Shown here piece by piece: positions 2,637 to 58,557 of a stretch of DNA of 61,409 nt; position 1 is the stretch's first letter, and each line of letters opens with the position of its first letter. The DNA is from an uncultured Oscillospiraceae bacterium (GTDB lineage Bacteria > Bacillota > Clostridia > Oscillospirales > Oscillospiraceae), in contig CANPXW010000003.1 in the NCBI GenBank assembly GCA_947587025.1, positions 1-61,409 on the forward strand, written 5' to 3'. The notes beneath the pieces are model-generated. The model was not told where the DNA came from and did no database searches. It saw only the letters and a program-made list of their open reading frames with translations. Made by a program: the position numbers and the translations under genes.

Positions 2637-2638
2637 TT

Positions 2639-5419: not shown

Positions 5420-5473
5420 CCTCTTGTCGCCTTTCTCCCTGTGGGTACGCTTTGGTGTGCATAGTATCAAGGT

Positions 5474-5479
5474 ATTATA
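5474..5479 (-). promoter_or_regulatory. Extended -10 promoter for secA
   Basis: On the minus strand the sequence TGTTATAAT gives an extended -10 (TG, one base, TATAAT). It lies about 55 bases upstream of the secA ATG. No good -35 is present at 17 bases (TTTTCA at best). Assignment is by motif only. Confidence 0.5.
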
Positions 5480-5540
5480 ACACAACATACCGTTGTTGAA
5501 AAGAGAAAAAACACAAAATATATGCGCCGGCCGGCATGAC

Positions 5541-5575
5541 AAAAGCCCCGCCCGGCGGATATGCCGGACGGGGCT
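5541..5575 (-). terminator. Intrinsic terminator of the choline-binding lipoprotein gene
   Basis: 13-bp stem (5544-5556 with 5563-5575, one mismatch, 6-base loop) followed on the minus strand by TTTT. It lies 28 bases beyond the lipoprotein stop codon and separates it from secA. Confidence 0.8.
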
Positions 5576-5603
5576 CGCGCTCGATGTTTGCTTCTGTCAG
5601 GTC

Positions 5604-9512: not shown

Positions 9513-9824
9513 ATCGGGTTCTCCTTTCTGGGTCGGATCGCCTGTGCGATCTCATTCTGACGGCCCCGGAAGGCCTGCCGCCAGGACAGCGAAACGGTCA
9601 GGTAAGCGTTCTGCGCGCCTGCCGCCGTGCGAAGGCAACTGCTGTTGAGGCTGTTACCCCCCCGAGTTTCCCGCTCTTCGCGGGGATCCGGCAACGGGGG
9701 TGTCCCGCTTCTGTATACTAAGGCTTGAAAACGGGATAAAACGGCTCAGATTTTTCCAAAAAATTTCAGAAATATTTTCTTTTCCATAAGAAAATCCTTA
9801 TGGTCCTGTCCCGTTTTCTTCCCC
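9513..9824 (-). promoter_or_regulatory. Long structured 5' leader of the lipoprotein gene
   Basis: About 310 bases lie between the promoter and the lipoprotein ATG. On the minus strand, 9640-9705 can fold as ACCCCCG paired with CGGGGGGGU, enclosing the phrase GCCGGAUCC and a CCGC/GCGG hairpin followed by GAAACU. This resembles the 5' half of ydaO-type (c-di-AMP) riboswitches, which often precede cell-wall genes. The usual 3' half (CCGACAGCUAACC) was not found, so the class is open. A GGAG ribosome-binding site precedes the ATG. Confidence 0.4.
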
Positions 9825-9830
9825 GCCTAC

Positions 9831-9860
9831 ATTATAAAATAGATGCGGCATCCGTTGCAA
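9831..9860 (-). promoter_or_regulatory. Sigma-A promoter for the lipoprotein gene
   Basis: Minus strand: -35 TTGCAA (9855-9860), 18-base spacer, -10 TATAAT (9831-9836). It would start transcription near 9824 and produce a roughly 310-base leader. Confidence 0.65.
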
Positions 9861-9944
9861 GCGTTTTGCCGCGAAAAACATTAGAGCATCTTACAAAAAT
9901 GCAGCCGTGGATTCGTGCATTCGCACGATTTTCCCATACAGACG

Positions 9945-9992
9945 AATATCCGTTCCCGGCGGCCATCATACCGGCCGCCGAAAACGGATATT
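9945..9992. repeat. 48-bp imperfect palindrome in an AT-rich gap
   Basis: AATATCCGTT (9945-9954) pairs with 9983-9992 and GGCGGCC (9958-9964) with 9973-9979, separated by a 3x3 internal loop and an 8-base apical loop. It lies 96 bases beyond the stop of the kinase gene. No T-run follows on either strand, so it is a poor intrinsic terminator. The rest of 9861-10087 is AT-rich with several ATATTC-like words and no gene. Confidence 0.6.
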
Positions 9993-10087
9993 ATCATATA
10001 CATCGCGAATATAGTGGTATATTCTTATATTATCGTGCATATTCTGGAGAATATTACACCAAATTCACTCGATATTCACTATATCCA

Positions 10088-11023
10088 TCAATATTCGTAT
10101 ATGCCTCCGCCGGTGAATTCCCGGAGCATGGCGTCGGCGGGCAGGTACTTCAGGTCCAGGGGCACGAACCGGGACAGGGCAGGTCCCACCTGGGTCAGCT
10201 CCCGGTAGGGGATGTCGTCGGGCACGTGGGCCAGCAGGGGCTCGGCGATGGGCCGCATGATGCAGGGCTCGTAGCCGAAGGCGGTGTCCAGCTGGACGTT
10301 GGCCTTGTTCTTGAAGGGGGAGATGTTGCGTATCTCCCCATGGCGCACGTTCTCCCACATGCGCATGGTCTCCGTCGGGTCGGCCCCCCGGAACAGGTGG
10401 TCCCGCACCACCCGGCGGGTCAGCCGCAGCCAGGTGCCCTTGTAGGCGTACTCCCCGTCGTCGTCCACGATGTTGGACCGGGCGCTGACATAGAGCTTGA
10501 AGGCCTCCGGGTGCACGTCGGTGATGGAGTCGTTCAGCGCGTGGATGCCCTCGAAGATGGCCACCTCATTCTTCCCCAGCCGCAGGGAGATGCTGGGCTC
10601 GATGGTGCGCATTTGGCGGGCGAACTCGTACTTGGGCACGAAGATGCGCTCTCCCCGGCTGAGCAGGGAGAAGTGTTCGTTTAAAAGCTCCATATCCATG
10701 CACAGGGGGCTCTCCAGGTCCGGCTCGCCGGTCTCGGTGCGGGGGACGGTCTCGGGCCGGACGGTCTTGAAGTAGTTATCCATGGAGATGCTGTGGCTCT
10801 TCACGCCCCGGCGGGCCAGCTCGTCCCGTATCTTCATGGCCGTGGTGGTCTTGCCGCTGCCGGAGGGACCGGACAGCAGCACGATGGGGCTGTTGGGCAG
10901 ATTGGCGATGATCTTCTCCGCCGTCTTTGCGATGCGCTCGGCGTACATCCGGTCGCACTCCTCGATGAATCTTTCCGGGAAATCCGCCGCTGCCCGGTTG
11001 ATCTGCTCCAGGTCAAACGCCAT
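10088..11023 (-). CDS. Uridine kinase/phosphoribulokinase-family nucleoside kinase
   Basis: 311 aa from the ATG at 11021-11023; a GTG three codons earlier is also possible. The P-loop SGPSGSGKTT lies at residues 51-60, followed by the family segment HSISMDNYF, where the Asp corresponds to the substrate-binding acid of uridine kinases. IFEGIHAL is a Walker B-like strand and RLTRRVVRDHLFRG is a lid-like Arg cluster. This is the clostridial branch of the PRK/Udk family, longer than Udk at the N-terminus, whose true substrate is generally not established. It overlaps the 3' end of hemZ by 11 bases, so the two are co-translated. Confidence 0.8.
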   Translation of the reverse strand: MAFDLEQINRAAADFPERFIEECDRMYAERIAKTAEKIIANLPNSPIVLLSGPSGSGKTTTAMKIRDELARRGVKSHSISMDNYFKTVRPETVPRTETGEPDLESPLCMDMELLNEHFSLLSRGERIFVPKYEFARQMRTIEPSISLRLGKNEVAIFEGIHALNDSITDVHPEAFKLYVSARSNIVDDDGEYAYKGTWLRLTRRVVRDHLFRGADPTETMRMWENVRHGEIRNISPFKNKANVQLDTAFGYEPCIMRPIAEPLLAHVPDDIPYRELTQVGPALSRFVPLDLKYLPADAMLREFTGGGIYEY

Positions 11024-12419
11024 TCGACTCACTCATCCTTTCGATATATTCCTTGGGGTACTTGGGGTTGGTGCGCCGGCGGACGGAGCCGTCCGGGCCG
11101 GTGTATTTGGTGGAGCCGCCCGCTCCCATGGCCAGCACGGTGGCCAGCTCCTCCATCATGATGATGTTGTAAAGGCTGCCCGTGCCGGGCTTGGCCCAGC
11201 CCACGTTCTCAAAGCCCCCGGACATGTACTTCTGCCGGTAGAGGTAATAGGGCTCGTACCCCGCCGCCCGCAGCCGGCCGCCGGCCAGGTCCACCATCCG
11301 GCCCACCGCTTCCGGTCCCGGCAGCGCCTCGGGCCGCTGGGCCAGGTAGGAGCCGTTTTTGATGGCCAGGGTGTGGACGGTGACGTTCTCCGGTGCCAGC
11401 GCCAGCACCTTTTCCAGGGTGTCGGCAAAGCCCTCGGGCGTATCGCCGGGCAGGCCCGCGATCAGGTCCATGTTCACCGCAAAGTCCCCCGCCGCCCGGA
11501 CCAGGGCCAGGGCGTCCAGGATGTCCTGAGCGGTGTGCTTCCTGCCGATGGCCTGGAGCACCGCGTCGGACATGGTCTGAGGGTTCACCGACACCCGGCC
11601 CACGCCGTGCTTTTTCAGCACCGCCAGCTTTTCCGCCGTGATGGTGTCCGGCCGGCCGGCCTCCACGGTATACTCCCGCAGGGCGGAAAGATCGAAGCTG
11701 GCCGCCAGCGCCGCGCACAGCGTGTCCAGCTGCGCCGCCGTCAGGGTGGTGGGGGTGCCCCCGCCCAGGTACAGGGCTGCGGGCCGCTGTCCGGTCCGGC
11801 GGACCTCCTCCCCTGTGCGGCGTATCTCCCCCAGCAGCGCCTGCAGATAGGGCTCCACCAGCTTTTGGCTGGTGCCCATGGCGCTGGAGATGAACGAGCA
11901 GTAGGCGCACCGGGTGGGACAGAAGGGGATGCCCACGTAAAGCCCCACGTCTCCCGGCGCCAGAGACGCCCTGGCGTCCAGCGCCGCCCGCGCGGTCTGC
12001 TCGCACAGGGCCGCCCGGTCCGCGTCTACGTCAAAGTCTGCGGCGAACTCCGCCGCCGTCCTGCCCTCACCGAGGTACCGGGCCATCAGCTTGCCCGGCT
12101 TGACCCCGGTCAGGGCCCCCCACACGGGCTTGGGCACCCCGGAGCTGAGGGCCGCCCGGTAGAAGCTCAGCTTCACCGCCTGCTGCTCCAGCCGCACCCG
12201 CTCCCGCTGGGTGCTCCAAGGCCGCACCGCCGCCCGGCCGGTATAGGCCAAGCCATCCCGGACCAGGGTGCAGACCGCCTCGCCCTCCGACAGGACGATG
12301 CGCGCCCCGTCCCCGGCCAGGTCCCCCGCCGGGTACACGGGCCGCTGGTCCGGGAACAGGCTCAGCAGCATCTGCTCGGCGGCATATTTATAGTTGTGTC
12401 CCACCAAATAAAGGTCCAT
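11013..12419 (-). CDS. hemZ: Radical-SAM coproporphyrinogen III oxidase-like protein HemZ
   Basis: 468 aa. The radical-SAM cluster motif is CPTRCAYCSF (CX3CX2C) after GLYVGIPF, followed by YLGGGTPTTL, the SAM-binding GGGTP motif. The N-terminal region of about 150 residues before the cluster is characteristic of HemZ rather than HemN. HemZ/HemN-like enzymes act on porphyrinogens or, in the HemW branch, on heme. Whether this organism makes heme cannot be judged here, and misannotation between HemZ and HemW is common. Its last 11 bases overlap the kinase gene. Confidence 0.85.
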   Translation of the reverse strand: MDLYLVGHNYKYAAEQMLLSLFPDQRPVYPAGDLAGDGARIVLSEGEAVCTLVRDGLAYTGRAAVRPWSTQRERVRLEQQAVKLSFYRAALSSGVPKPVWGALTGVKPGKLMARYLGEGRTAAEFAADFDVDADRAALCEQTARAALDARASLAPGDVGLYVGIPFCPTRCAYCSFISSAMGTSQKLVEPYLQALLGEIRRTGEEVRRTGQRPAALYLGGGTPTTLTAAQLDTLCAALAASFDLSALREYTVEAGRPDTITAEKLAVLKKHGVGRVSVNPQTMSDAVLQAIGRKHTAQDILDALALVRAAGDFAVNMDLIAGLPGDTPEGFADTLEKVLALAPENVTVHTLAIKNGSYLAQRPEALPGPEAVGRMVDLAGGRLRAAGYEPYYLYRQKYMSGGFENVGWAKPGTGSLYNIIMMEELATVLAMGAGGSTKYTGPDGSVRRRTNPKYPKEYIERMSESNGV

Positions 12420-47370: not shown

Positions 47371-48018
47371 TCACGATGTGACGGGTCTTTTGTGCTGCTC
47401 GTAATACCACTCCAGGAAGCTGTCATAGATCTCCTCGCCCCTTTGCCGGGCCTTCACCGCGTCCTGGATGTCCTTATAAGAGCCCAGGTAGTAGGTCTTG
47501 CCCTTGAAGGTGATCTGCGCCCGCCAGCGCCTCGTTCTTTCGTTCCAATACACACCGTTGTAGCCGCTGGTGTTGGACGCGATAGGCGTCTGCATGCGGT
47601 TTTCGATCAGCGTCACGGACGTGCCGTCCACCAGGCGCAGATTGTCCTTGTACATCTGCCTTTGCAGACAGCCACAGCTCTTGGTGTGTCCGTTCAGCAG
47701 ATTCTTTTGCAGCGCCAGCGTCTGCTTTCCGCAGTCGCACTTACAGCGCCAGTACTGGTGATTATCCTGCTGGCCGGCGTACTCCTCCACTACCAAAGAG
47801 CCGAAACGCTGGCCCGTCAAGTCTAAACGGAGCGGCTGGCGCATGCAGCCGCAGCTTTTCTTGTATCCGCGGCTCAGCTGTGAGCCGCTGGCCATGCATT
47901 CCCTGCCGCAATCGCACCGGCACCGCCATATCACGGAACCGTTCTCCCCTCTCTCCTGTGTCGGCTCGATACAGGTCAGCCGACCATACCTTTCTCCTCT
48001 CCGATCCTTTACTGCCAT
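47371..48018 (-). CDS. AP2-domain protein with two zinc-ribbon-like repeats
   Basis: 215 aa from the ATG at 48016-48018 (MAVKDRRGERYGRL). Two copies of a repeat (GERYGRLTCIE...WRCRCDCGRECMASGSQL...KSCGC and GQRFGSLVVEE...WRCKCDCGKQTLALQKNL...KSCGC) each hold a Cys quartet suited to zinc. The C-terminal AP2/ERF domain follows: SGYNGVYWNERTRRWRAQITFKGKTYYLGSYKDIQDAVKAR. This is the layout of proteins encoded by phages, homing elements and conjugative elements; AP2 binds DNA. It interrupts the pilus operon and has a 343-base gap in front. Confidence 0.85.
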   Translation of the reverse strand: MAVKDRRGERYGRLTCIEPTQERGENGSVIWRCRCDCGRECMASGSQLSRGYKKSCGCMRQPLRLDLTGQRFGSLVVEEYAGQQDNHQYWRCKCDCGKQTLALQKNLLNGHTKSCGCLQRQMYKDNLRLVDGTSVTLIENRMQTPIASNTSGYNGVYWNERTRRWRAQITFKGKTYYLGSYKDIQDAVKARQRGEEIYDSFLEWYYEQHKRPVTS

Positions 48019-48362
48019 TTTTATGGCTCCCTTTCTACGCGCCGCAGGCGTTTGCCCACGGTCAGGAGCGGTACCGCCGTGGCAGTGCGCCCGCATGGGC
48101 ACACTGCGCTTCACCCGCTCCAGCAGGTGCGCGTAGGGGCCAGGGCTTACGTCCTTCCCCGCGTTCGCGTCGCCTTGGTGATAAACTCACCTGCGGCCGC
48201 GTTGTTCTCCACCGTTCGGTGGGTATTTTTTCTCGTTTCCGAGCCGCCGTGGAACACATCGCATCCCCTGACGCCGCTTCCGCCTTTGCGTACGCCATAC
48301 TCCCCGTGGGGACGGATGATCCGATTCTTTTTCGACCTCCTTTGCCGTTTATTTTTTACTGT
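48019..48362. other. 344-base non-coding gap inside the pilus cluster
   Basis: No convincing gene. It contains an imperfect hairpin (48084-48092 with 48097-48105, one mismatch) and a perfect CCACCG-TT-CGGTGG hairpin at 48209-48222 followed by TATTTTTT on the plus strand, which resembles a terminator for an antisense transcript. A GGAGG site at about 48340 and the ATG-rich frame after it give only an unlikely 78-aa reading. It may be the 5' region belonging to the AP2 element. Confidence 0.4.
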
Positions 48363-49355
48363 TTACTGCTTTGCACGTTTTTTCCTGACCATTGTCACCG
48401 CCAGCGCCGCGATCACGATGAGGATCGCGCCCAGCAGGCCCACGGCCACATAGAGATCCGACCGCACCTTGTCCCGCGCCTGCTGCAGCTCGGTCTTGGG
48501 TTTCTGCCTGATATGGGGGGTGCCGCCTGCGGGCGTTTCGTCCAGGTCGATGATCTCCGCAGGGCCCTGGTCCAGCGGGGTCTGCTCGTCCTCGATGTTC
48601 GCGGTCTCCGGCTGGGCCTCCGGCGCAGCCGCAGGCTCCTCTGCCGGCACGACGGCCTCACCGCCGCCGGCGGGTGCCGCGCCGCCGCCTATCTCCTCGG
48701 TCACCGGGGCCTCGGGCTCCTCCGCCGCGCCCTCGGTGTACACGTAGGGCGTGGGCTGCGCCGCCGGCTCCGGGGTCGCTGTCACCACTGGGGTGTACTC
48801 AAATTTGACGATCGGGTTCGACTCCGTAAGCGTCCAGGTAATGTTGTACGCCTGGGGCTCGTAGCCGTCGATGTAGATATAAGAGACGACCGGCTTATCG
48901 CCCACATTGCCATAAAAGGTCTGTCTGGGCGCAAGATCAGTCTCCGTGCCTTCTATCACGTATCGCACGGTATAGGGCACCAGCTGTCCCCGTATACCGT
49001 AGGCCACCACGTAATCCGCGTCCCCCGTCACCGTCAGCGGCGTGGACTCCACGGTGTTGTTGTCATGGCCGCTGGGACGGATGCACTTGACGTAGTACTT
49101 CCCGTCATACGTCATGCTCTCGTTCAGTCCGTCCACAGAGAACGGGAACGGGTCGCCATAGCTGCACTGCACGGTCATCACGTAGGAGCCGTCAGCGAAC
49201 GTCGCCGCCTGCCCCGCCTCCGTATCCAGGCCGCCGCTGCCCGCGAACAGACGCACCGTATAGGTATCGCCCTCCGCCAGGGCGCCGGCGCCCAGCGCCG
49301 CCAGCACCAGCACCGCCAGAAGAACGCTGACGAGCCGCTTTGCGCCTTTATTCAT
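48363..49355 (-). CDS. Secreted MucBP-like protein with C-terminal membrane anchor
   Basis: 330 aa. Signal peptide (VSVLLAVLVLAALGAGALA), two small beta domains, the second like MucBP (VPYTVRYVIEGTETDLAPRQTFYGNVGD...YIDGYEPQAYNITWTL), a long Pro/Glu/Ala-rich spacer (about 190-285), then one helix (VAVGLLGAILIVIAALAVTMV) and a KKRAKQ tail. No LPXTG motif, so it is membrane-tethered and spans the wall by its spacer. Its start overlaps the preceding gene by 8 bases; last gene of the tight pilus operon before the AP2 gene. Confidence 0.8.
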   Translation of the reverse strand: MNKGAKRLVSVLLAVLVLAALGAGALAEGDTYTVRLFAGSGGLDTEAGQAATFADGSYVMTVQCSYGDPFPFSVDGLNESMTYDGKYYVKCIRPSGHDNNTVESTPLTVTGDADYVVAYGIRGQLVPYTVRYVIEGTETDLAPRQTFYGNVGDKPVVSYIYIDGYEPQAYNITWTLTESNPIVKFEYTPVVTATPEPAAQPTPYVYTEGAAEEPEAPVTEEIGGGAAPAGGGEAVVPAEEPAAAPEAQPETANIEDEQTPLDQGPAEIIDLDETPAGGTPHIRQKPKTELQQARDKVRSDLYVAVGLLGAILIVIAALAVTMVRKKRAKQ

Positions 49356-50118
49356 CCCCGTTCTCCTCCTTGTACTTCTTGTTTCGCCGCAGCGCCACGA
49401 CGCCCAGCACCAGCGCCGCGATACCGCAGCCCAGCATCACGCCGCTCCACAGCAGCAGATTCGTCTCATCGCCGGTGCGCACGGCCCGCCAGGTGATGTC
49501 GTTGCGGCCAGGCGTGGTCCGGTGCAGCTCCACCGCGAAGTTCATCTGCAGCTGCGCCAGGGTGTCCTGATAGGTATTGCCCTGGGTCTCGCCGTCCAGC
49601 GCCACCCGCAGTGTGACCTTCCCCTTCTCCCCCTGCTTCAGGGTGTCCAGATAGAACATATCCTCCAGGGAGATAGTCGCCTCGTTCAGGCCTTCCCGGT
49701 CCTCGCCGTTTATCCTCTGCGCCTTGTCCTCGCCGCCTACGCGGGAGCTGGTATACAGCACATCCTCATGCCCATCCGGGCCCACGTATCGCAGATCGTA
49801 GCTGTATGCGCCGCCGCTGGCCATGTACTGCCCCTCAGTGGCCTCCAGACTCTGCAGCACCTGGTTGGACATGTACCAGTCCGTGGTGGCCGCGTTGTCG
49901 TTGCTCAGCTCCATATAGAACGTGGCATCGTCACCCGGCTGCAGCCCGTTGAGCGCATCCACCATGCCGAAGTCGTCGAACTGCATGTCGTCGTACATCC
50001 TCTCGTCCGACGTGAACGTCACATGCCAATCTCCGCCGGTCCACGATTCTGCATACGCCGTCGTCCCCAGAGCCGCCGCCAGGACCAACGCCATCGCCAT
50101 ACTCAAAAACCGCTTCAT
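49348..50118 (-). CDS. Secreted pilus-operon protein with C-terminal membrane anchor
   Basis: 256 aa. Signal peptide (MKRFLSMAMALVLAAALGTTAYA), an extracytoplasmic beta-rich domain (DWHVTFTSDERMYDDMQFDDFGMVDALNGLQPGDDATFYMELSN; GKVTLRVALDGETQGN), then a helix (LLLWSGVMLGCGIAALVLGVVAL) and a charged tail RRNKKYKEENGDE; no LPXTG. The N-PGD-x-A-x-F-x-M-x-L-x-N phrase resembles the conserved strand of TasA/CalY-like fibre proteins. It lies 13 bases after the preceding gene. Role in pilus or matrix assembly is inferred from position. Confidence 0.75.
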   Translation of the reverse strand: MKRFLSMAMALVLAAALGTTAYAESWTGGDWHVTFTSDERMYDDMQFDDFGMVDALNGLQPGDDATFYMELSNDNAATTDWYMSNQVLQSLEATEGQYMASGGAYSYDLRYVGPDGHEDVLYTSSRVGGEDKAQRINGEDREGLNEATISLEDMFYLDTLKQGEKGKVTLRVALDGETQGNTYQDTLAQLQMNFAVELHRTTPGRNDITWRAVRTGDETNLLLWSGVMLGCGIAALVLGVVALRRNKKYKEENGDE

Positions 50119-50131
50119 GGTCCAGTCCTCC

Positions 50132-50872
50132 TCAGCCCAGAGTGCCCCAGGCGCTCATTTTCGCGTCCGACGCGTTGTTGGTCTGCACCGCGTCCACGTC
50201 CGCCCGCAGAACGAACTGACAGCCGTTGTAGGTGTACGTCGTCGTGATGACCGTTTCGCCTGCCTCGTTGGTGCTGTATTCCTTGGTGACCTCCGCCTCG
50301 ATGCCCTCGTCGTCTATCTCCAGCGTGTCCGAGAACGCCGGCGTCGTGTCGCCGGATGCCAGAATGGGCCTGTAATACAGCACCGTCCGTTCCTCTGTCC
50401 GGGAGCTCTCGTCCTCGTACCAGTCGTCTCCCAGTGTCAGGTGCAGCTTGATCAAGCCTGAATTCAGGCTCGGGATCTTCTTTCCGCTGCCATCCGCCCA
50501 GTACCGGTAGATGGTCACCCGCACGTACTCGTCGATGGTGCCGGAGTTGCGTACCGCCAGCTCCTCCCTATAGGCGCGGCCCAGCTTCAGCCCCTCCGGT
50601 GTGCCGTCCTTGCCGGTATCGAGCATCTTCGCCACCAGCACGCCGTTGCCGCCGGACCACTCGTCGTTGCTGCCCAGGTAATCACGGCTGCTCACCGGCT
50701 CGCCGTTCTCCAGCAGCGTCACGCCGATGTCCTGCATCTGCACCTGCGCCTTATATAGCTTTGAAGTATACTGCAGCGCTGCCTGGGAGCTGCCCACCGC
50801 GCTGAAGCAAAGCAGTGTGGCCGCCGCCGCGAACAGGGCGATGGTCAGAAATCCGCCTTTTGCGTGTTTCAT
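50132..50872 (-). CDS. TasA/camelysin-like exported protein (N-terminal anchor)
   Basis: 246 aa. N-terminal helix (FLTIALFAAAATLLCFSAVGSSQAAL) followed by QYTSKLYKAQVQMQDIGVTLLENG and then an Ig-like domain with LAVRNSGTIDEYVRVTIYRYWAD. The pattern of hydrophobic start, short spacer and N-G/D-G-x-x-x-x-V-x-V strand recalls SipW-dependent TasA-family proteins, though similarity is loose. No C-terminal anchor. It is 4 bases from its upstream neighbour, with which it may form a pair. Confidence 0.7.
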   Translation of the reverse strand: MKHAKGGFLTIALFAAAATLLCFSAVGSSQAALQYTSKLYKAQVQMQDIGVTLLENGEPVSSRDYLGSNDEWSGGNGVLVAKMLDTGKDGTPEGLKLGRAYREELAVRNSGTIDEYVRVTIYRYWADGSGKKIPSLNSGLIKLHLTLGDDWYEDESSRTEERTVLYYRPILASGDTTPAFSDTLEIDDEGIEAEVTKEYSTNEAGETVITTTYTYNGCQFVLRADVDAVQTNNASDAKMSAWGTLG

Positions 50873-50876
50873 CCTC

Positions 50877-51392
50877 TCAGCCCTCCTTCGCTGTCAGCGT
50901 CCAGTCCGCATAGGGCATGCCCGCGTCGTCGTACAGCACCTTCGTGCTCTCCGTCACCACGACCACGTTCAGCTCCGTGCCAGGCTCGATAGGGTGCAGC
51001 TCGTCCTCGCCTGTGGGCATCGCGATGCTCGCCTTCAGCACCGGCGTGACGTCTTTCGGCTGGATGGGGGTCCCGTAGTAATACCAGCCGTCCGCCTCGT
51101 TGAGCTTCCAGCCCTCGCCGTCGTAGCTTATCTCCACGCCCGCAGGCGCGATCGCCTTCGCCCGCACCCAGCACTCGACCTCGCCGGTGTTCTCCACCGT
51201 GATGCTCTTCACGCTTCCCTCCACGTGCTCGTGGGGGATGGTCCGCACATCGTACAGCTGCAGCGTATACCCGCCCTGGGCCGTCACATAGGTGGTGAAG
51301 TAGCTGTATGCGGCTCCCGCCGAAGCGCCCAGCACCAGCGCCGCCGCCAATACCGGCAGCACCGCCCTGTTGAGCCATTTGTGTCCTCTCAT
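50877..51392 (-). CDS. Small TasA-like exported protein (SipW-type leader)
   Basis: 171 aa. The leader VLPVLAAALVLGASAGAAYSYFTTYVTAQGGYTLQL matches the SipW-type pattern (helix, then A-Y-x-Y-F-T-x-x-x-x-A-x-G-G). The domain that follows contains ITVENTGEVECWVRAKAIAPAG, again an N-T-G strand as in TasA/CalY. No sipW-like signal peptidase is visible in the window. Its ATG overlaps the upstream stop (ATGA). Together with the next gene it suggests a fibre or matrix component beside the sortase pilus. Confidence 0.72.
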   Translation of the reverse strand: MRGHKWLNRAVLPVLAAALVLGASAGAAYSYFTTYVTAQGGYTLQLYDVRTIPHEHVEGSVKSITVENTGEVECWVRAKAIAPAGVEISYDGEGWKLNEADGWYYYGTPIQPKDVTPVLKASIAMPTGEDELHPIEPGTELNVVVVTESTKVLYDDAGMPYADWTLTAKEG

Positions 51393-52441
51393 CGATCTTT
51401 CTCCCCCTCATAGACCCAGCCGGTCCCGTCGTACACGTACCGGTTCACCACCGACCCGTCCGGGATACGCTCGTTCGTGTAGGTGTTGGTGAAGGGCACG
51501 CGGTTATAGTCCCCCTCCGCCGGCATCGGCAGCTCTTTGATCTCCACGGTCACTTTGCCGTCCTTGGGCTCGTAGCTTCCGCCGGAATGCACCTCTGTCA
51601 CCGTCACGTGCGCCCCCACCGGGATGCCGCTCACCGTCGTGCTCTGGGTGCCCGGTCCGCCGAGCGTCAGGCTCACCACGTTTCTGTAGACCACGTCGCC
51701 GTCTATATCAGCCGTCACCTCGAAGACGAAGGTCGTCTGGCCCAGGGTGGCGTTATACTCCGGCAGGGATTTCTCGATCACGATGTCCGTCAGACGCCGC
51801 TCACGGTCGCCCTTGAGATACATCGGCACCTGGTACTGCCACCGATCCCCGTCCAGGCCGTTCTCCGCCGTGGCCCGCTGGATGGATGGCACCGCCAGCA
51901 GCGCCGGATTGAACTCGTACGCCCACAGCGCGGTCTCTGCCTTCTCCGGTATCACCAGGAACAGGCCCTGGCTATAGCCCTCCGGCAGCTCGATCTTCCC
52001 GCCGTTCGCCGCCGCCTCAGTCTCCAGCAGCGGCTCGACAGCCGGCTCCGCAGGAGGCTCTCCCTCTGTTGGCTCCGCCGGCTGCACCAGCGCCAGCGCC
52101 GCTTTCAGCAGCTCCACTATCTGGGTATCGCTGCCCACATCCGCGCTGTTGGTGAGGATACCGCCCCGCCAGTATTCGTTCTCCTGCAGGTCTTTGAACT
52201 CGTCCGTCAGGCCGAACGCGCCGGACCGGTTCACCGTCGCCACCTGATACACCTGGACGCCGACCTTCGCATCCGCCAAGTCCTCCCGGAAGGCGGCGTT
52301 GTCCTCGCCCTCCTGCAGCTTCACGATGATGCTTCCCGGCTGGGCCGCGTCGATCTCGCCCAGGGCCAGCGCCGGTACCGCCAGCGCAAGCGTCAGCACC
52401 ATCGCCGCCGCCATCGCTATCGCTCTCTTGGTTCGGGTCAT
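51389..52441 (-). CDS. Pilus-operon Cna-B-like exported protein without sorting signal
   Basis: 350 aa from the ATG at 52439-52441 (MTRTKRAIAMAAAM), 9 bases after GGAGG; ATGs three codons earlier overlap that site. Signal peptide ends near VPALALG. N-terminal half resembles the first domain of SpaH-type pilins (GSIIVKLQEGEDNAAFREDLADAKVGVQVYQVATV), with a Pro/Glu-rich insertion. The C-terminal half is Cna-B/DUF5979-like (GIPVGAHVTVTEVHSGGSYEP; VPFTNTYTNE). It lacks an LPXTG motif and a C-terminal helix, so it would be secreted or incorporated non-covalently. Directly downstream of the sortase gene. Confidence 0.78.
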   Translation of the reverse strand: MTRTKRAIAMAAAMVLTLALAVPALALGEIDAAQPGSIIVKLQEGEDNAAFREDLADAKVGVQVYQVATVNRSGAFGLTDEFKDLQENEYWRGGILTNSADVGSDTQIVELLKAALALVQPAEPTEGEPPAEPAVEPLLETEAAANGGKIELPEGYSQGLFLVIPEKAETALWAYEFNPALLAVPSIQRATAENGLDGDRWQYQVPMYLKGDRERRLTDIVIEKSLPEYNATLGQTTFVFEVTADIDGDVVYRNVVSLTLGGPGTQSTTVSGIPVGAHVTVTEVHSGGSYEPKDGKVTVEIKELPMPAEGDYNRVPFTNTYTNERIPDGSVVNRYVYDGTGWVYEGEKDR

Positions 52442-52465
52442 TCCCATCATCCTCCCCGTCTCTCC

Positions 52466-53284
52466 TCAACTTCTTTTCTGCTTCGGGAACAAAATACGCA
52501 CCAGCATCACCAGCAGCACCGGCAGCGCCAGACCGCCCGCCACAAGCAGCGGCTCGATCTGCTCCGCATCCTCCGGCACTACAAGCTCCCGCTCCTCCGG
52601 CAGATCGCCTATCCGCTCGCCCCGTATCAACAGCCGGTGGGAGTTGACCCCGTAGGGCGTGCATGTCACCAGCGTGCAGTAGTCCCGGCCGGGCTCCATC
52701 GCCAGGTCGTTTAACTTCTCCGGCTCCACGATCACGATCTGGTCCACCTGGTAGGTCAGCGTCCGGTCCAGCACCTCCAGCATAAACACGTCCCCCAGCG
52801 CCATCTTGTCCAGGTCCGTGAACAGCCGGGCGGACGGCAGGCCCCGGTGCCCGGATAGCACACAGTGCTGGCCCCGGCCGCCTACCGGCAGGCTGGTGCC
52901 CTCGATGTGTCCCGCCGCGATCTGCAGCACCGTCTCGTCCGTGCCGTGGTAGATGGGCAGCGATACGTCGATGGACGGTATCTCGATGTAGCCCATGATG
53001 CCCGTGCCGGTCACGTCCAGCGTGCTGACGTACTGCTGGTGCTCCGCCTCGTCGGAGATGTATCGGTTATCTTTCCGGGCCAGCAGGTCGTTGTAGGCCT
53101 CCGCCTCAGCCCACATTTCCCTGTAAGCCTCATCTGTCATCGACTCCACCGCCTCGGTGTAGCCGGCGATGGCGCGGGATTGATGGTACTGGTTCCACCA
53201 GTCTGACACTGTGGGATACAGCAGTAAGGACAGCCCTGCGAGCAAAACGAGTATTAAGATGATCGTTGACGACCGTTTGCGCAT
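52466..53284 (-). CDS. srtC: Class C (pilus-polymerising) sortase
   Basis: 272 aa. Transpeptidase that links pilin subunits through their LPXTG signals. N-terminal membrane helix (STIILILVLLAGLSLLLYP) and a late C-terminal helix (PLLVAGGLALPVLLVMLVRILF), the two-helix topology of class C. Catalytic motifs: His in LSGHRGLPSARLF, Cys in YCTLVTCTPYGVNSHRLLIRG, with Arg in SHRLL. Near the N-terminus NQYHQSRAIAGY precedes the substrate lid. It sits between the pilin gene and the Cna-B-like gene. No housekeeping class A/E sortase is in the window. Confidence 0.95.
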   Translation of the reverse strand: MRKRSSTIILILVLLAGLSLLLYPTVSDWWNQYHQSRAIAGYTEAVESMTDEAYREMWAEAEAYNDLLARKDNRYISDEAEHQQYVSTLDVTGTGIMGYIEIPSIDVSLPIYHGTDETVLQIAAGHIEGTSLPVGGRGQHCVLSGHRGLPSARLFTDLDKMALGDVFMLEVLDRTLTYQVDQIVIVEPEKLNDLAMEPGRDYCTLVTCTPYGVNSHRLLIRGERIGDLPEERELVVPEDAEQIEPLLVAGGLALPVLLVMLVRILFPKQKRS

Positions 53285-53397: not shown

Positions 53398-55011
53398 TTA
53401 CTTCTCCGCGCCGTTGACGCGCCTCTTCGTCACCAGCAGGATGACCGCTGCGGCCACCAGGATGGCGCCGGCCACGTAGAAGATCGTGGTGCCGATGCCG
53501 CCGGTGCTGGGCAGCTCCATGCCGGTCAGGTTCTCGATATTGGTCTGGCCCATGGCCGTGCCCTCAGCGGGTTCCAGGGTGAAGCTGAAGCCCTCGGTGC
53601 CGGTCACACCGGTCAGCTCCGGAGCGTCAGACTCTACGTCATGCTCAGCGCTGACGGTGAAGTCCTTCGGGTCGATGGCGTTGTAGCCGTCGGGCGCCTT
53701 GGTCTCGACCAGCTTGTAGTCGCCGTCGTCCAGGCCCTTGCCGTAGAACTTGGCATTCTCGGCTTCGCCCTTCTCATTTTTCAGCGTCTTCTGCTCCAGG
53801 GGCACAGGCAGCCACTCCTTCACGGCTCCTTCGGCGTCCTCGCCAAGCTGCTTGCCCTTCTCGTCCAAAGCGACAGCGCCATCGGTGTCGGGGGCCACCT
53901 TCTTGTACAGCGCGAACGCAGCGCCGGTCAGGGGCTTGCCGTTGCCGTCGACCTTGTTCACGTCCAGGTCAAAGGTGAAGACCACGACCTTGTCTTCAGG
54001 GGTCTTGCCGGTGCCTTCCTCATAGGGGTTGTTGCTGTACTCGATGTGCATCTCGTTGGGGTTGCCGACGCCGCCGATAACGGCGCTGTCCAGCAGCTTG
54101 GAGGTGTACTCCACCGTGATCGTGTTAAGGTCAGCCGCATTGAAACCGGCGATGCTCTTGATGTCAGTGAACGTCACATCGAAGGTGCAGCCATCGGCGC
54201 CAGGAACGCTCACGGAGTAAGCGCTCTTATCAACCTCCTTGCCGTTGAGCTTGACAACAACGTCATTGTTGAAGGACAGGCCTTTGCTCTCCTTATCGTG
54301 GAAGGCCAGCTTATAGCTCTTATAGGAAGAGGTGGTGCCGGCGGGGATGGTGGCCGTCAGCTGGAAGGGAACGTCGTCGCCGATGTCGTAGTCGGCGCTG
54401 TCCTGCCAGCCAGTCTCACTGTCAGCGGCGGAGTCGTTCACGTCCTTGACCTTCTTCTCGGAGGAGGGTTTCTCCTCCTTGGTGGTCACGTCAACGGCGG
54501 CGCGGCCGGCGGTGTCCAGCATGACCAGGGACTTCACGCCAACGCCTTCCCCGTCAGCGGCGGCCGTGGTCTCGACGATCAGGTAGTAGCCCTGCTCAAC
54601 ATTTTCAAATACGTTCCCGGCAGCTGTGATGTCAGTAGGCATGCCCTTGATGGCCTCGTACACCGCGTCCGCGAACTTGCGGACAGCGTCGGCGTCAGAG
54701 CTGTGCTCCTCAAGGTACTTGATGACGGCCTCGTCTGAGCCCACCCCGGCAGCTTCCTGCATGGCAGCACTGTAATCGGGATCCACGGTATAGGAGAAAT
54801 GCTCGTTGTCCTCGGAAGTGGTCAGCGTCATCAGCTGATAGGCAGCGTATACGCCGCCGGTCGAGCTTCCGTCACTCTCTTTGACCGTGATAGTCGTCCT
54901 GACGTTTTCGCTCAGTCCTGGGACCAGTCCAGCCGCGAAAGCGCTCGCGCCCAGGCTCAGGACCAGGGTCAGCACCATCACGATGCTGAGCAGTTTCTTG
55001 ATGCTTCTCAT
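53398..55011 (-). CDS. Major pilin, isopeptide-forming, LPXTG-anchored (SpaH/EbpB family)
   Basis: 537 aa from the ATG at 55009-55011 (MRSIKKLLSIVMV). Signal peptide ends near ASAFAAG. An N-terminal pilin domain (TTITVKESDGSSTGGVYAAYQLMTL; VEQGYYLIVETTA) is followed by a Lys-rich strand (TTKEEKPSSEKKVKD), where the pilin-motif lysine is likely, a D2-like domain, and a C-terminal Cna-B domain with KVDGNGKPLTGAAFALYK and the E-box LVETKAPDGY. The sorting signal is LPSTG, then a helix and KRRVNGAEK. Self-made Lys-Asn isopeptide bonds would lock the domains. The gene is adjacent to srtC, as is usual for a pilus backbone. Confidence 0.93.
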   Translation of the reverse strand: MRSIKKLLSIVMVLTLVLSLGASAFAAGLVPGLSENVRTTITVKESDGSSTGGVYAAYQLMTLTTSEDNEHFSYTVDPDYSAAMQEAAGVGSDEAVIKYLEEHSSDADAVRKFADAVYEAIKGMPTDITAAGNVFENVEQGYYLIVETTAAADGEGVGVKSLVMLDTAGRAAVDVTTKEEKPSSEKKVKDVNDSAADSETGWQDSADYDIGDDVPFQLTATIPAGTTSSYKSYKLAFHDKESKGLSFNNDVVVKLNGKEVDKSAYSVSVPGADGCTFDVTFTDIKSIAGFNAADLNTITVEYTSKLLDSAVIGGVGNPNEMHIEYSNNPYEEGTGKTPEDKVVVFTFDLDVNKVDGNGKPLTGAAFALYKKVAPDTDGAVALDEKGKQLGEDAEGAVKEWLPVPLEQKTLKNEKGEAENAKFYGKGLDDGDYKLVETKAPDGYNAIDPKDFTVSAEHDVESDAPELTGVTGTEGFSFTLEPAEGTAMGQTNIENLTGMELPSTGGIGTTIFYVAGAILVAAAVILLVTKRRVNGAEK

Positions 55012-55076
55012 ACTTTGGTTTCCCTTCCTCAAAAAATTTTCTGCTTTCTCTTTAATAACAAGGGCATTTGCCCATA

Positions 55077-56876
55077 TTAGAAGTTGCCGGAGAAGGTGGC
55101 CGAGTTGTTCTCCACGTCGGAGTCGGCGTCCAGCATCTCAACGCTCTCGCCGTCGAAGTGGAGCACGGCGGCGGTGTTGTCCACCGCGAAGCCATCGCTG
55201 TCCTTGAACTGCACTTCCACCTGGACCTCGGTCAGCGGCTCGATCTCGCAGTTGTGCTCGTCGAAGAAGCCGATGTTATAGACGACCATCTGGCCGGCAG
55301 TCAGTTCGCTCTCATCCAGCTTCGCGGAAGCCTGGGCCAGGCGCTCGGCGTAACGCTCCGGGTCGCTCTCGGCGGTGACTTTGTAGGCGATGAGCCGGGC
55401 GTCCTCCGGCAGGCCGGCCTCGGGGCCGTAGGAGGCGGTGACGACCACGTCGTCGTTCTCGAAGGTCTTCTGCCGCAGGCTGGCCGCCTGGACCTGGGCC
55501 TCGTCCGGGTCCTCAACGCCCTCGGGCAGCTGGAAGCAGGCCACGTCGTGCAGGTGCTCCTGCTCGCCGCAGGCAAGCTCGCCGGCCTCGTTGTAGCAGG
55601 CCTCGGTGTGGAAGTGCTCGCTCATGCCGCACACCAGGATGGGGCTCACCCCGTCCAGGCCGGGGATGGCGTAGCACTCGCCGGTGTGGGTGTGGGGAGC
55701 CACGCCGCACACGTAGTTCATGTTCTCGTCCATGCAGTTGGTGCTGTGCTCGTGTTCGCTCATGCCGCACACCAGCACGGGCATCGCGAAGTGGGGAACG
55801 CCGTCCTCGGCGATCTGGACCAGGTCGTCCTCGATCTGGACGATGCCGTCGTCGATCTCCGCGATCTCGGTCTCATCGGCCACAGCCTCGTCGGCAGCGG
55901 TCTCGGTCTCAGCGGCCTCGGTCTCAGCGGTCTCGGGGGCCACGTAGCAGGCCTCGCTGTGCTCATGCTCGGGCTTCGTGCAGGTCAGGGTCATCAGGTA
56001 GCACAGGTCGGTGTGCTGGTGGGGCCGCTCGATGGTCTGCTCGTAGGTATAGAAGCAGTCGGCGGTGTGGATGTGCTCGTTGACCTCGGTCATGCCGCAG
56101 GTGCGCTCGGTGATCTCGGTGCCGTCCTCCAGGACGGTGGTGGTGTAGCAGTCGTCGGTGTGGGTGTGCAGGATGACCTCGGGCTTGGAGCACACCAGCC
56201 GCTTCTCGGTGATGAAGCAGGCGTCGGAGTGGGTGTGGCCCTCGCTCTCGCTCTGGCCGCAGGTCAGCTCCATGGTCTCCACGTTGGCCCAGCAGGCGTC
56301 GGTGTGGGTGTGGCCCATGCTCTCGGGCTCGGTGCAGGTCAGCTCGGTGACCAGTTCGGTGGCGTAGCAGGCGTCGGAGTGGGTGTGGCCCTCGCTCTCG
56401 GGCAGCCCGCACACGTTCACCAGCTCCTCCACGTAGCAGTTCTCGTCATGGGTGTGGGGCTCCACCTGGGGCAGGGGGCAGACCAGCGCGCCGCTCTCGT
56501 CGTAGCAGTCGGCGGTGTGCATGTGCGCCAGGAAGTCGGCGTAGCCGCAGATCACGCTGCCGGCCTCGTCATAGCAGTCAGCGGTGTGCTGGTGGGCCGC
56601 AGCGGTGCAGGCCAGCCCGATGACGGCCTGGGCGCTCTGCAGGACCTGGCCTTCCTCATAGCCGCAGGCCAGCTGGGCCGTGTAGCACTCGTCGGTGTGC
56701 TGGTGGGCCTCCAGCCCGCAGTAGGTGTCGCGCTCCATGGCGATAGCGGGGAGGATCAGCGCGTAGGTGGTGACGAACACCACGATCGCTGCGGGGACGG
56801 CCACCACACGCTGCCAAAGCCGGCGCTTGGCATTTCCACGGGCCATCCGCTCGACCTTTCTCATCATATTCTCCAT
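55077..56876 (-). CDS. Surface protein with 15 His-x-His-x3-Cys repeats, first gene of the pilus operon
   Basis: 599 aa from the ATG at 56874-56876 (MENMMRKVERM), 7 bases after GAGGAGG. N-terminal helix VVAVPAAIVVFVTTYALILPAIAM acts as anchor or uncleaved signal. Then come 15 units of the type GHTHTDACY, alternating with Cys-Gly pairs (CGLPESEG, CGMSEHEH), to about residue 470, interrupted by an acidic Glu/Ala stretch (about 300-345). The C-terminal 130 residues form a beta domain. The regular His/Cys ligands suggest metal binding or disulfide-locked knots. Relatives usually continue into Cna-B domains and LPXTG; this one ends after SATFSGNF without anchor. Confidence 0.8.
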   Translation of the reverse strand: MENMMRKVERMARGNAKRRLWQRVVAVPAAIVVFVTTYALILPAIAMERDTYCGLEAHQHTDECYTAQLACGYEEGQVLQSAQAVIGLACTAAAHQHTADCYDEAGSVICGYADFLAHMHTADCYDESGALVCPLPQVEPHTHDENCYVEELVNVCGLPESEGHTHSDACYATELVTELTCTEPESMGHTHTDACWANVETMELTCGQSESEGHTHSDACFITEKRLVCSKPEVILHTHTDDCYTTTVLEDGTEITERTCGMTEVNEHIHTADCFYTYEQTIERPHQHTDLCYLMTLTCTKPEHEHSEACYVAPETAETEAAETETAADEAVADETEIAEIDDGIVQIEDDLVQIAEDGVPHFAMPVLVCGMSEHEHSTNCMDENMNYVCGVAPHTHTGECYAIPGLDGVSPILVCGMSEHFHTEACYNEAGELACGEQEHLHDVACFQLPEGVEDPDEAQVQAASLRQKTFENDDVVVTASYGPEAGLPEDARLIAYKVTAESDPERYAERLAQASAKLDESELTAGQMVVYNIGFFDEHNCEIEPLTEVQVEVQFKDSDGFAVDNTAAVLHFDGESVEMLDADSDVENNSATFSGNF

Positions 56877-56901
56877 CGTTTTTCCTCCTCGATGTTTCAT
56901 A

Positions 56902-56919
56902 GAGTACTAAACTCCACGA
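56902..56919 (+). repeat. Left inverted repeat of the switch
   Basis: GAGTACTAAACTCCACGA, the exact reverse complement of 58260-58277; the match stops at the neighbouring base on both sides. The inner GAGT-ACTAA-ACTC symmetry looks like two short recombinase arms around a 5-base core. Confidence 0.9.
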
Positions 56920-56955
56920 AAAAGCGGGGAGGACCGGCTCTCCGGTCCTCCCCGC
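56919..56955 (-). terminator. Strong terminator of the recombinase gene
   Basis: Perfect 14-bp stem, 56924-56937 with 56942-56955, 4-base loop, followed on the minus strand by TTTTT running into the left repeat. It lies 19 bases after the recombinase stop and insulates the pilus operon. Confidence 0.95.
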
Positions 56956-56973
56956 CTGTGGCTCCTGCGTCGC

Positions 56974-57973
56974 TCAGAGCCCTGCCTGGGACAGCTTGTT
57001 CATATTGCTGCGCTTCAGGTCCATAGATGCGTGCACATATCGGTTCAGGGTGATGGAGGTATCGGAATGACCCAACACCTCGCTGAGGCTTTTCAGCTCA
57101 AAGCCCACCTCCACGCTCCGGGTGGCAAAGGTGTGCCGCAGGGTGTGGAAGTGCACCCCCTCCAGGCCGCAGAGGTCCGCGAACTTTTTTATCCGCAGCT
57201 GGACCACTCTTGGCTCCATATACCGCTCCGTGCCGGTGAGGACGTAGCAGTCCGGCCCGCAGCCCTCCATCTGCCGGCACAGATCCGACACACTCTCGGA
57301 CATGGGTATGGCCCGCACGGCGGCGTCGCTTTTAGGACTGCCCACGACCACATGGGTCCTGCTGCCGCCGTCACCGTCCAGCACCCGCAGCCGCTGCATG
57401 GTGGCGTCGATGAAGATGACACGCTGCTCCATATAGATGTTGCCCCACCGCAGGGCGCACAGCTCTCCCAGGCGCATACCGGTCAGCAGCGCCAGCAGCG
57501 TGCCGAACTTACAGCAGTCCATGTCCCGGCGCAGAAAGGATACGAGACGATCCTGCTCTTCACGGGACAGCACCCGTATCAGTTTGCGCGGCTCTCTGGG
57601 GATGCGGATATACAAGCCCGGAGAGACCGCCCAGCCCTGGCCGGCCGCATATATCAGGATGGAGCGCAGCACCGTCAGTATGTCACGGCGGGTCTTGGAT
57701 GCCAAGCCTTGCTCCAGCATGCTCTGGACGAACGCCTCTATCACCTGCATGTCGACGTCGCCGGTACGCAGGCTTCCCAGTGCCGGGGCGATGTGGCGGC
57801 GCCAGGTGACTTCATATTTTAATATAGGTGGAGTCCTTTACAGCCAGCTTTCGGCCCCTGAGCCACCGTGTGCCCGCCTCGTTCACATCGTGAAGTAGCT
57901 CTGACGGCGGCTGGGGCATAGAATAGTCTCGCAGCGGCAGCGATACAGCGCGGCCGGTCATCTGTTGTTTCAT
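56974..57973 (-). pseudogene. Tyrosine recombinase (integrase), split by a one-base frameshift
   Basis: The C-terminal 258 residues (ATG-in-frame at 57750) hold the catalytic set: Arg in TGMRLGELCALRW, the KSDAAVRAIP lysine hairpin, HTLRHTFATR (H-x-x-R), LGHSDTSITLNRYVH (His and nucleophile Tyr). The N-terminal part starts at ATG 57971-57973 (MKQQMTGRAVSLPL), runs through TRWLRGRKLAVKDSTYIK and stops at TGA 57812-57814. Removing one A from the run at 57817-57820 joins the two as STYIKYEVTWRRHIAPALGSL, a normal SAM-like core-binding domain; the repaired protein has about 332 aa. An inactivated gene, a phase-variable A-run or a sequencing error are the options. Confidence 0.85.
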
Positions 57974-58026
57974 GATATGATCTCTCCCTGATATAGATTT
58001 GAGCCGCCATCATGCCACAGCGCACA

Positions 58027-58055
58027 TTGACAGCTCATAAAATGAAAACTATAAT
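58027..58055 (+). promoter_or_regulatory. Perfect-consensus sigma-A promoter inside the invertible segment
   Basis: -35 TTGACA (58027-58032), exactly 17 bases, -10 TATAAT (58050-58055), start near 58062. On the plus strand there is no gene to serve: transcripts run over the direct repeats and the right inverted repeat into a terminator at 58302. After inversion it would drive the pilus operon. It is divergent from the recombinase gene. Confidence 0.9.
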
Positions 58056-58104
58056 AAAAAATAATTTGGGCGATGCGCGGCCGAAGGCCCGTATTTTCCC
58101 TATA

Positions 58105-58184
58105 TTTTCCATTCAAAGACGGCCTCTGATTTCCTGTATTTTCCATTCAAAATATTCTCTGATTTCCTTCTTTTTCCATTCGAA
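58105..58184 (+). repeat. Three iteron-like direct repeats
   Basis: TTTTCCATTCAAA at 58105-58117 and 58139-58151, and TTTTCCATTCGAA at 58172-58184; periods of 34 and 33 bases, about three helical turns. CTCTGATTTCCT also recurs before copies two and three. Candidates for accessory recombinase sites or a regulator's operator. Confidence 0.75.
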
Positions 58185-58259
58185 AAAAATAATCACAAAA
58201 ATCAAAAAATATTGAGCCATTTTTCGCGGGCAAGTCGTCTTGTATTAGTGAAAAGGGAG

Positions 58260-58277
58260 TCGTGGAGTTTAGTACTC
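58260..58277 (-). repeat. Right inverted repeat of the switch
   Basis: TCGTGGAGTTTAGTACTC, the exact reverse complement of 56902-56919. Confidence 0.9.
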
Positions 58278-58301
58278 AACGATTTCTAATATCACACAAC
58301 A

Positions 58302-58333
58302 AAAAAGCGGCCTGTTATCCAGGTCGTCTTTTT
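58302..58333 (+). terminator. Terminator just outside the right repeat
   Basis: AAAAAGCGGCCTG (58302-58314) pairs with 58320-58333 (one bulge, one G-U), TTATC loop, ending in CTTTTT. It would stop transcripts leaving the invertible segment in the present orientation. Confidence 0.8.
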
Positions 58334-58351: not shown

Positions 58352-58420
58352 AAAAGAAAAACGCCCCTGACCGACGAATAGGGATCTGCAAGCAGGTCCC
58401 CATCGTCTTCAGGGGCGTTT
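58352..58420 (-). terminator. Terminator of tRNA-Arg(CCT)
   Basis: AAACGCCCCTGA (58359-58370) pairs with TCAGGGGCGTTT (58409-58420); inside, GACGA pairs with TCGTC and a GGGA/CTGC arm with GCAG/TCCC, making one long hairpin. The minus strand continues TTTTCTTTTG. Six bases after the tRNA 3' end. Confidence 0.85.
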
Positions 58421-58502: not shown

Positions 58503-58523
58503 GCGTGCTGTGACATTGTAAAC

Positions 58524-58557
58524 GAAAACCGGGCCCGTGTCAAGCCACGGACCCGGT
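58524..58557 (-). terminator. Terminator of the V-ATPase operon
   Basis: ACCGGGCCCGTG (58528-58539) pairs with CACGGACCCGGT (58546-58557, one mismatch), 6-base loop, followed on the minus strand by TTTTCGTTT. It lies 13 bases after the subunit D stop. Confidence 0.85.

Follow-up and report, generated by a model that had tools for sequence, protein, structure and literature searches.

The window, by which we mean the whole 61,409-nt stretch of DNA analysed here, carries on its minus strand a pilus operon lying directly beside a segment bounded by inverted repeats. The operon starts, as proposed earlier, with the ATG at 56876, which has a good ribosome-binding site and lies 25 nt from the left repeat arm. 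Its first gene (55077-56876) encodes a His/Cys-repeat surface protein without a Pfam match and is followed by genes for a SpaH/EbpB-type LPXTG major pilin (53398-55032), a class C (pilin) sortase (52466-53284; 6.5e-84), a probable minor pilin with a DUF5979 profile match (51389-52450) and four further proteins of the same run (48363-51392), which are probably exported and gave matches below the cut-off or none. Pilin and sortase exceed the NCBIfam cut-offs (NF033902, NF033745), in keeping with the previous description of the target as a sortase-pilus operon. A gene at the end of the operon (47371-48114) shows a weak AP2 match below the cut-off, and its homolog is found directly upstream of a pilus operon in the sister species (G012:C63).

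The same genome holds a paralogous operon of His/Cys-repeat protein, pilin and sortase genes at 3215-11998 of locus L094 (contig G000:C1). This operon has a fixed, perfect TTGACA-17-TATAAT promoter, and inverted repeats of at least 15 bp were absent from 12 kb there. Judged from sequence, the genome thus apparently contains one fixed and one switchable pilus operon.

The two 18-bp arms of the segment (56902-56919 and 58260-58277) are perfectly complementary and separated by 1,340 nt, exactly as the earlier note had described, and with their flanks counted the repeats reach 23 bp at 91% identity. The predicted operon-side recombination site (56897-56919, plus strand; core 56902-56919) has imperfect palindromic arms around ACTAA, while the distal one (58260-58282, minus strand; core 58260-58277) forms the imperfect palindrome TCGTTGAGT-ACTAA-ACTCCACGA. 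Such an imperfect palindrome is the form expected for the core site of a tyrosine recombinase, and the sites of many relatives look similarly palindromic by eye. The 61-kb window contains 26 non-overlapping exact inverted repeats of at least 15 bp; one of them measures 19 bp, its arms lying 29.6 kb apart, and one more has 18 bp like the pair described here. Three of the 26 have their arms within 2 kb, the 56902/58260 pair being the longest of these. Repeat length alone is therefore unexceptional in the window, and the case for its significance rests on the cassette family described below. With up to 2 mismatches, the 18-mer of the site is absent from all other genomes among the 35 of the genus, and no further site was found in the window's own genome. 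Scanning of viral contigs with the 18-mer returned one stretch with a single copy and one ORF of 132 aa within 1.3 kb, which was dismissed as chance; the recombinase gave no match there. The repeats enclose a promoter beside the target operon, which is the arrangement of an inverton (invertible-promoter phase switch).

The tyrosine recombinase reported between the repeats is indeed present, but its reading frame is interrupted in this assembly. The C-terminal 258 aa (56974-57750, minus strand) match Pfam Phage_integrase at E 8.9e-25, which is the sole Pfam match of the protein, none being to a serine recombinase. Residues R93, K140, H202, R205, H228 and Y238 (numbering of the C-terminal piece) correspond to the R..K..HxxR..H..Y set with its familiar catalytic roles in tyrosine recombinases and are identical in all 41 aligned recombinases. 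An N-terminal piece of 53 aa (57812-57973, minus strand), matching the start of the G012 recombinase protein, lies in a different frame from the rest, which is 287 aa long from stop to stop; the gene is interrupted between the two, and an uninterrupted gene with an N-terminal core-binding domain was not found in the window. At 38 of the 41 loci examined the recombinase frame is open and reaches a start codon 55 or more codons upstream; the three others are the window, L061 (51, narrowly below the cut-off) and L062, which lies at the end of a contig. No other recombinase match at E 1e-30 was seen in the window's own genome, whose assembly is 80% complete and split into 154 contigs. The earlier suggestion of an autonomous working switch in this genome is thus not supported, since the frame is broken in the assembly; the window copy is either locked OFF or mis-assembled at that point.

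Inside the segment, an exact TTGACA-17-TATAAT promoter (58027-58055, plus strand) points right and away from the operon, as had been noticed before. After inversion this sigma-A-type promoter would end 248 nt before the operon ATG, close to the previous estimate of about 240. The view that the operon lacks its own promoter also holds: between 56700 and 58500 the sole minus-strand promoter scoring at least 9/12 is at 57705-57677, inside the recombinase gene and before a terminator, and no such site lies between segment and operon, so that a promoter outside the invertible segment, as in a cwpV-type switch, was not seen here. That terminator (56924-56955, minus strand), between the recombinase and the operon-side site, consists of a 14-bp stem followed by TTTTT and folds at -34 kcal/mol. 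Another terminator (58307-58327, plus strand) stands just beyond the distal site, in the path of the outward transcript as the segment now lies; both had been correctly recognised. Further out, an 11-of-12 minus-strand promoter (58515-58543) before a tRNA-Arg gene reads toward the segment, but the tRNA and the segment are separated by a long hairpin with a T-rich tail (58359-58420; -44 kcal/mol when its flanks are included), which probably shields the switch from tRNA read-through.

A second, closer promoter-like element, TGAGCC-N17-CGTCTT at 58213-58241 (plus strand), ends 18 nt before the core of the distal site and had been overlooked. Inversion would place its end 62 nt upstream of the operon ATG and thus reposition this element before the operon as well, so that both promoter elements would be switched together. 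Its bipartite form, which we take to resemble that of ECF-sigma promoters, and the kind of genes that follow the motif lead us to predict an ECF-sigma-like promoter here. The leader between the two promoter elements holds three copies of TTTTCCATTC on the plus strand (starting at 58105, 58139 and 58172; 58105-58181 in all) at a spacing of about 34 nt, which were not seen by eye in the leader of the sister species.

TGAGCC-N16/17-CGTCTT is present in the window segment, in the G012:C47 cassette and upstream of the fixed pilus operons of G000:C1 and G012:C63, and was not seen in the segments of other cassettes. The strict motif TGAGCCGTTT-N9-13-CGTCTT has 19 matches in 10 of the 35 genus genomes as compared to 0 for the reversed pattern; the window's copy differs from it at one base and is outside these 19. 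By eye, a gene for an exported protein or a signal peptidase follows 17 of the 19 matches, the remaining two being in the G012 cassette (facing away) and near a contig end. A looser form gave 5 matches in the window's genome against 1 for the control, two of the five looking like chance.

From this anatomy and the comparisons given below it seems very probable that the segment is a self-contained invertible promoter cassette, in which its own tyrosine recombinase flips promoters to switch the pilus operon, and that the window copy is OFF. The recombinase encoded within the segment would recombine the two 23-bp inverted sites so that the 1.38-kb segment flips. In the OFF state the recombinase would read toward the pilus operon and be stopped by the terminator, while the sigma-A-type and ECF-like promoters would fire outward, away from the operon and into the second terminator. 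In the ON state after inversion, the genes for the His/Cys protein, the pilins and the sortase would be co-expressed. Catalysis by the window recombinase, activity of the promoters and an ON state of the window copy are what we infer here; with its recombinase frame interrupted, this copy may now be locked.

At the family level, relatives of the recombinase were found in 26 of 400 genomes (E <=1e-45); the genus gave 4 of 35 (1e-30) and the phylum 5 of 398 (1e-50), the window's own genome being included in these counts. The family search gave 35 places in its 26 genomes, of which G060:C202 was left out of the long-flank examination. Altogether 42 recombinase hits in 41 loci were examined, 31 of them with enough flanking DNA; the tree and the residue counts comprise 41 rows, the partial L018 being left out. 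Exact inverted repeats of at least 15 bp enclose 25 of the 31 recombinases with room, as compared to 14 of 1,506 random intervals from the same loci. The other six lack such repeats, L048 among them having a 14-bp pair. With three near contig ends included, 28 cassettes have repeats of at least 15 bp.

Promoters in these cassettes occupy a preferred place and direction. On the 5' side of the recombinase, an outward promoter of at least 10/12 lies no more than 320 nt from the repeat in 21 of the 28 cassettes (39 of 560 shuffles), while an inward promoter at this end occurs in 2 and an outward promoter at the other end in none; in 7 of the 28, a 10-of-12 promoter is missing at the expected end. 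The insulating terminators described earlier are both present in the window but are not general, since only 7 of the 28 cassettes have one on the 3' side of the recombinase, two of these seven being the repeat palindrome itself, and 3 have one outside the far repeat. Repeat-flanked and unflanked recombinases are not cleanly separated in the tree (8 label changes), four of the six unflanked ones falling in one clade. Cassettes built in this way are found at loci whose flanks are unrelated.

Neighbours of the cassettes were chosen by simple ORF rules, and of 20 proteins searched against Pfam one (L010) had no match. Adjoining genes include those for SLH S-layer proteins (L065, L074 and L076), giant proteins with FctA (L047) or DUF11 (L053) domains, a Cna_B adhesin (L052), a SpaA-domain protein (L014), a camelysin-like protein (L061), a repeat surface protein (L055) and HA-helicases (L011 and L056), and a signal peptidase gene lies 570 nt away at L017. 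TadZ genes stand near the cassettes of L072 and, at 642 nt, L075, and their position suggests phase-variable Tad pili in Clostridia. Other neighbours are not obviously surface genes: those for Rrf2 (L059), a chemotaxis receptor (L070, 716 nt) and integrase-like proteins (L049 and L051), as well as ORFs outside the set searched against Pfam. At L014, two different cassettes (1936-3354 and 4907-6312) with different sites are present 1.5 kb apart on one contig. The contig of L018 (G012:C61, 1-7160) begins inside a recombinase of the family and continues, by eye, with an HA-like helicase, a chain-length-type gene and a sugar transferase; from this gene content L018 is a possible switchable polysaccharide locus.

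Orientation was compared in 8 pairs of loci with homologous flanks within 2.5 kb, leaving out the matches that L014 gave to itself and to the L064 segment. Cassettes are oppositely oriented in 4 of the pairs and similarly oriented in the other 4; the four opposite pairs amount to three independent contrasts, as L076 occurs in two. Four further selected pairs share orientation (L016/L017, L066/L067, L011/L012 and L047/L048), L016 and L017 being from the same genus with near-identical recombinases. The cleanest contrast is provided by two paralogous cassettes of G305 (C24 and C49), which have identical 21-bp sites and segments 81.6% identical. Their homologous flank (79.9% over 1,223 bp, beginning at the site) is attached to the recombinase-3' end in one cassette and to the promoter end in the other. 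S-layer paralogs of G049 are also oppositely oriented, with a flank alignment beginning about 85 nt outside the site. Opposite orientations were found only between paralogs and between species.

The sister species G012 bears on the state of the window. Its C47 cassette stands before a homologous operon in the same orientation as the window, and its paralogous C63 operon is directly preceded by promoter, leader and one site. Since no recombinase lies upstream of the latter in the 1.6 kb present on the contig, C63 represents a paralog in the ON layout and not the same locus flipped. When C47 was inverted in silico, its alignment with C63 reached 413 columns, 357 of them identical, and ran from the promoter across the site and on into the gene; uninverted, the alignment starts at the site and covers 222 columns (216 identical). 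A plain local alignment of the window leader with G000:C1 gave 82 of 106 columns in both orientations, so the inverted form aligns no better and the link between window and C1 rests on the shared bipartite element. As G012 thus has one pilus operon in the window layout and a paralogous one in the layout of the inversion product, the window is read as OFF, in agreement with the original assignment. Cassette anatomy, the family and the opposite orientations among paralogs and relatives are established here at the level of sequence comparison.

Other readings of the locus were weighed against this one. A formerly working switch might now be locked OFF, the frame change having inactivated the recombinase so that the operon is silent or depends on a recombinase acting in trans. 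We regard this as a real possibility, if one that we would lean against. The N-terminal 53-aa piece and the remaining 287-aa frame are out of register, the gene is open at 38 of the 41 loci examined, and the window's genome offers neither another recombinase at E 1e-30 nor another site at up to 2 mismatches. However, in an assembly of 154 contigs and 80% completeness, a misassembly or a minority variant would give the same picture, and the window keeps its catalytic residues, its terminator, its promoters and its perfect sites, as would be expected for recent decay or none. An orientation with the recombinase reading toward the target might instead be a low-expression ON state, fed by read-through from the recombinase promoter. 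No terminator between recombinase and site was found in 21 of the 28 cassettes, as this reading would have it, but strong ones, which would stop such read-through, stand there in the window (-34) and in G012:C47 (-34.6 kcal/mol), and we consider this reading unlikely.

It is very improbable that the recombinase is the integrase of a mobile element beside the tRNA-Arg gene, with the repeats as a by-product. The tRNA-Arg(CCT) gene does start 149 bp beyond the distal core, and the family match is Phage_integrase, the nearest solved chains being named Int protein, presumably a transposon's integrase. However, the repeats are inverted rather than direct, and the architecture is repeated at loci with unrelated flanks. 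The 3' end of the tRNA is single-copy within the window, without a direct att repeat or duplicated tRNA 3' end, and an integrase-at-tRNA reading was set aside on this ground. A Hin-like, self-contained switch design built on a tyrosine recombinase and present in the OFF orientation is the reading that we retain, and it is well supported by the sequence comparisons.

A wider proposal is put forward more tentatively, as one about which we remain nearly evenly divided. Portable phase-variation modules of about 1.1-1.8 kb, each with a tyrosine recombinase and an outward promoter between its own sites, may have spread before unrelated surface operons of a Clostridia family, comprising those for sortase pili, S-layer proteins, Tad pili, giant isopeptide adhesins and possibly polysaccharide loci. 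The window's genus would add an ECF-type promoter, so that its pili might answer to the flip as well as to an envelope or host signal. If true, a large Clostridia family diversifies its cell surface by Hin-like modules built on a tyrosine recombinase, and the flip combined with the ECF-like promoter would be a two-key control of pili.

Several known switches share parts of this design. Like the window, the E. coli fim system (FimB/FimE) combines a tyrosine recombinase with an invertible promoter controlling a pilus; fim pili are not sortase pili. According to the accessible portions of the papers cited here and below, fimS is 314 bp long (PMC9993118) and its recombinases are encoded beside the switch and not inside it (PMC2784873), unlike in the window. 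The cmr switch of C. difficile is likewise a clostridial tyrosine-recombinase switch with its promoter in the invertible element, and it too is under dual control, a further promoter being accompanied in that case by a c-di-GMP riboswitch (PMC8844915). In contrast to the window, RecV serves several switches and is encoded outside the segment, the second cmr promoter lies upstream of the switch and not within it, and the targets are signal-transduction genes and not pili (PMC8844915). The cwpV switch, which the earlier note had offered as an invertible-promoter parallel, does not serve as one: its 195-bp inversion region is described as having no promoter or ORF, and a terminator mechanism has been proposed (PMC2784873). 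Like the window, it pairs a recombinase from a clostridium with inverted repeats ahead of a gene for a surface protein, but its segment contains neither promoter nor gene and recV is remote (PMC2784873).

Inverton group 139 with invertase group 35 of gut Clostridia is comparable in that a tyrosine recombinase is encoded near the invertons, one of which, found in Intestinimonas, differs when surface-attached cultures are compared with free ones (PMC11892184). The two examples given with coordinates in the portions available have about 205 and 227 bp between their repeats (PMC11892184), which is too short to hold a recombinase. That survey (PMC11892184) counts invertases intersecting an inverton and keeps gene-intersecting invertons, and cassettes of the window type might therefore be present in its tables. 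One gut survey discarded invertible regions containing or overlapping coding sequences (PMC8748976), and the PhaseFinder genome search is described in a review as a search of intergenic regions (PMC11868660); as far as these accounts go, such modules would escape there. A promoter cassette with the tyrosine recombinase inside was not found for Clostridia in the literature searched, which included accessible portions of PMC11892184, PMC5903667, PMC8748976, PMC2784873, PMC11868660, PMC9187656 and PMC8844915, with supplements not covered and subscription papers mostly outside its scope.

The closest known system in layout is Hin of Salmonella. There, the operon next to the segment is driven by an outward promoter in one of the two orientations, and the window segment similarly contains both a recombinase and an outward promoter. 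The recombinase gene lies inside the inverted segment in the Hin/fljBA system too (PMC5903667, PMC2784873; accessible portions). Hin differs from the window enzyme in being a serine recombinase, with other sites and other targets, and the ECF-like second promoter element is a further feature that sets the window apart. The Hin-like layout is already known, and its combination with a tyrosine recombinase and a second, ECF-like promoter element would be a variation on it.
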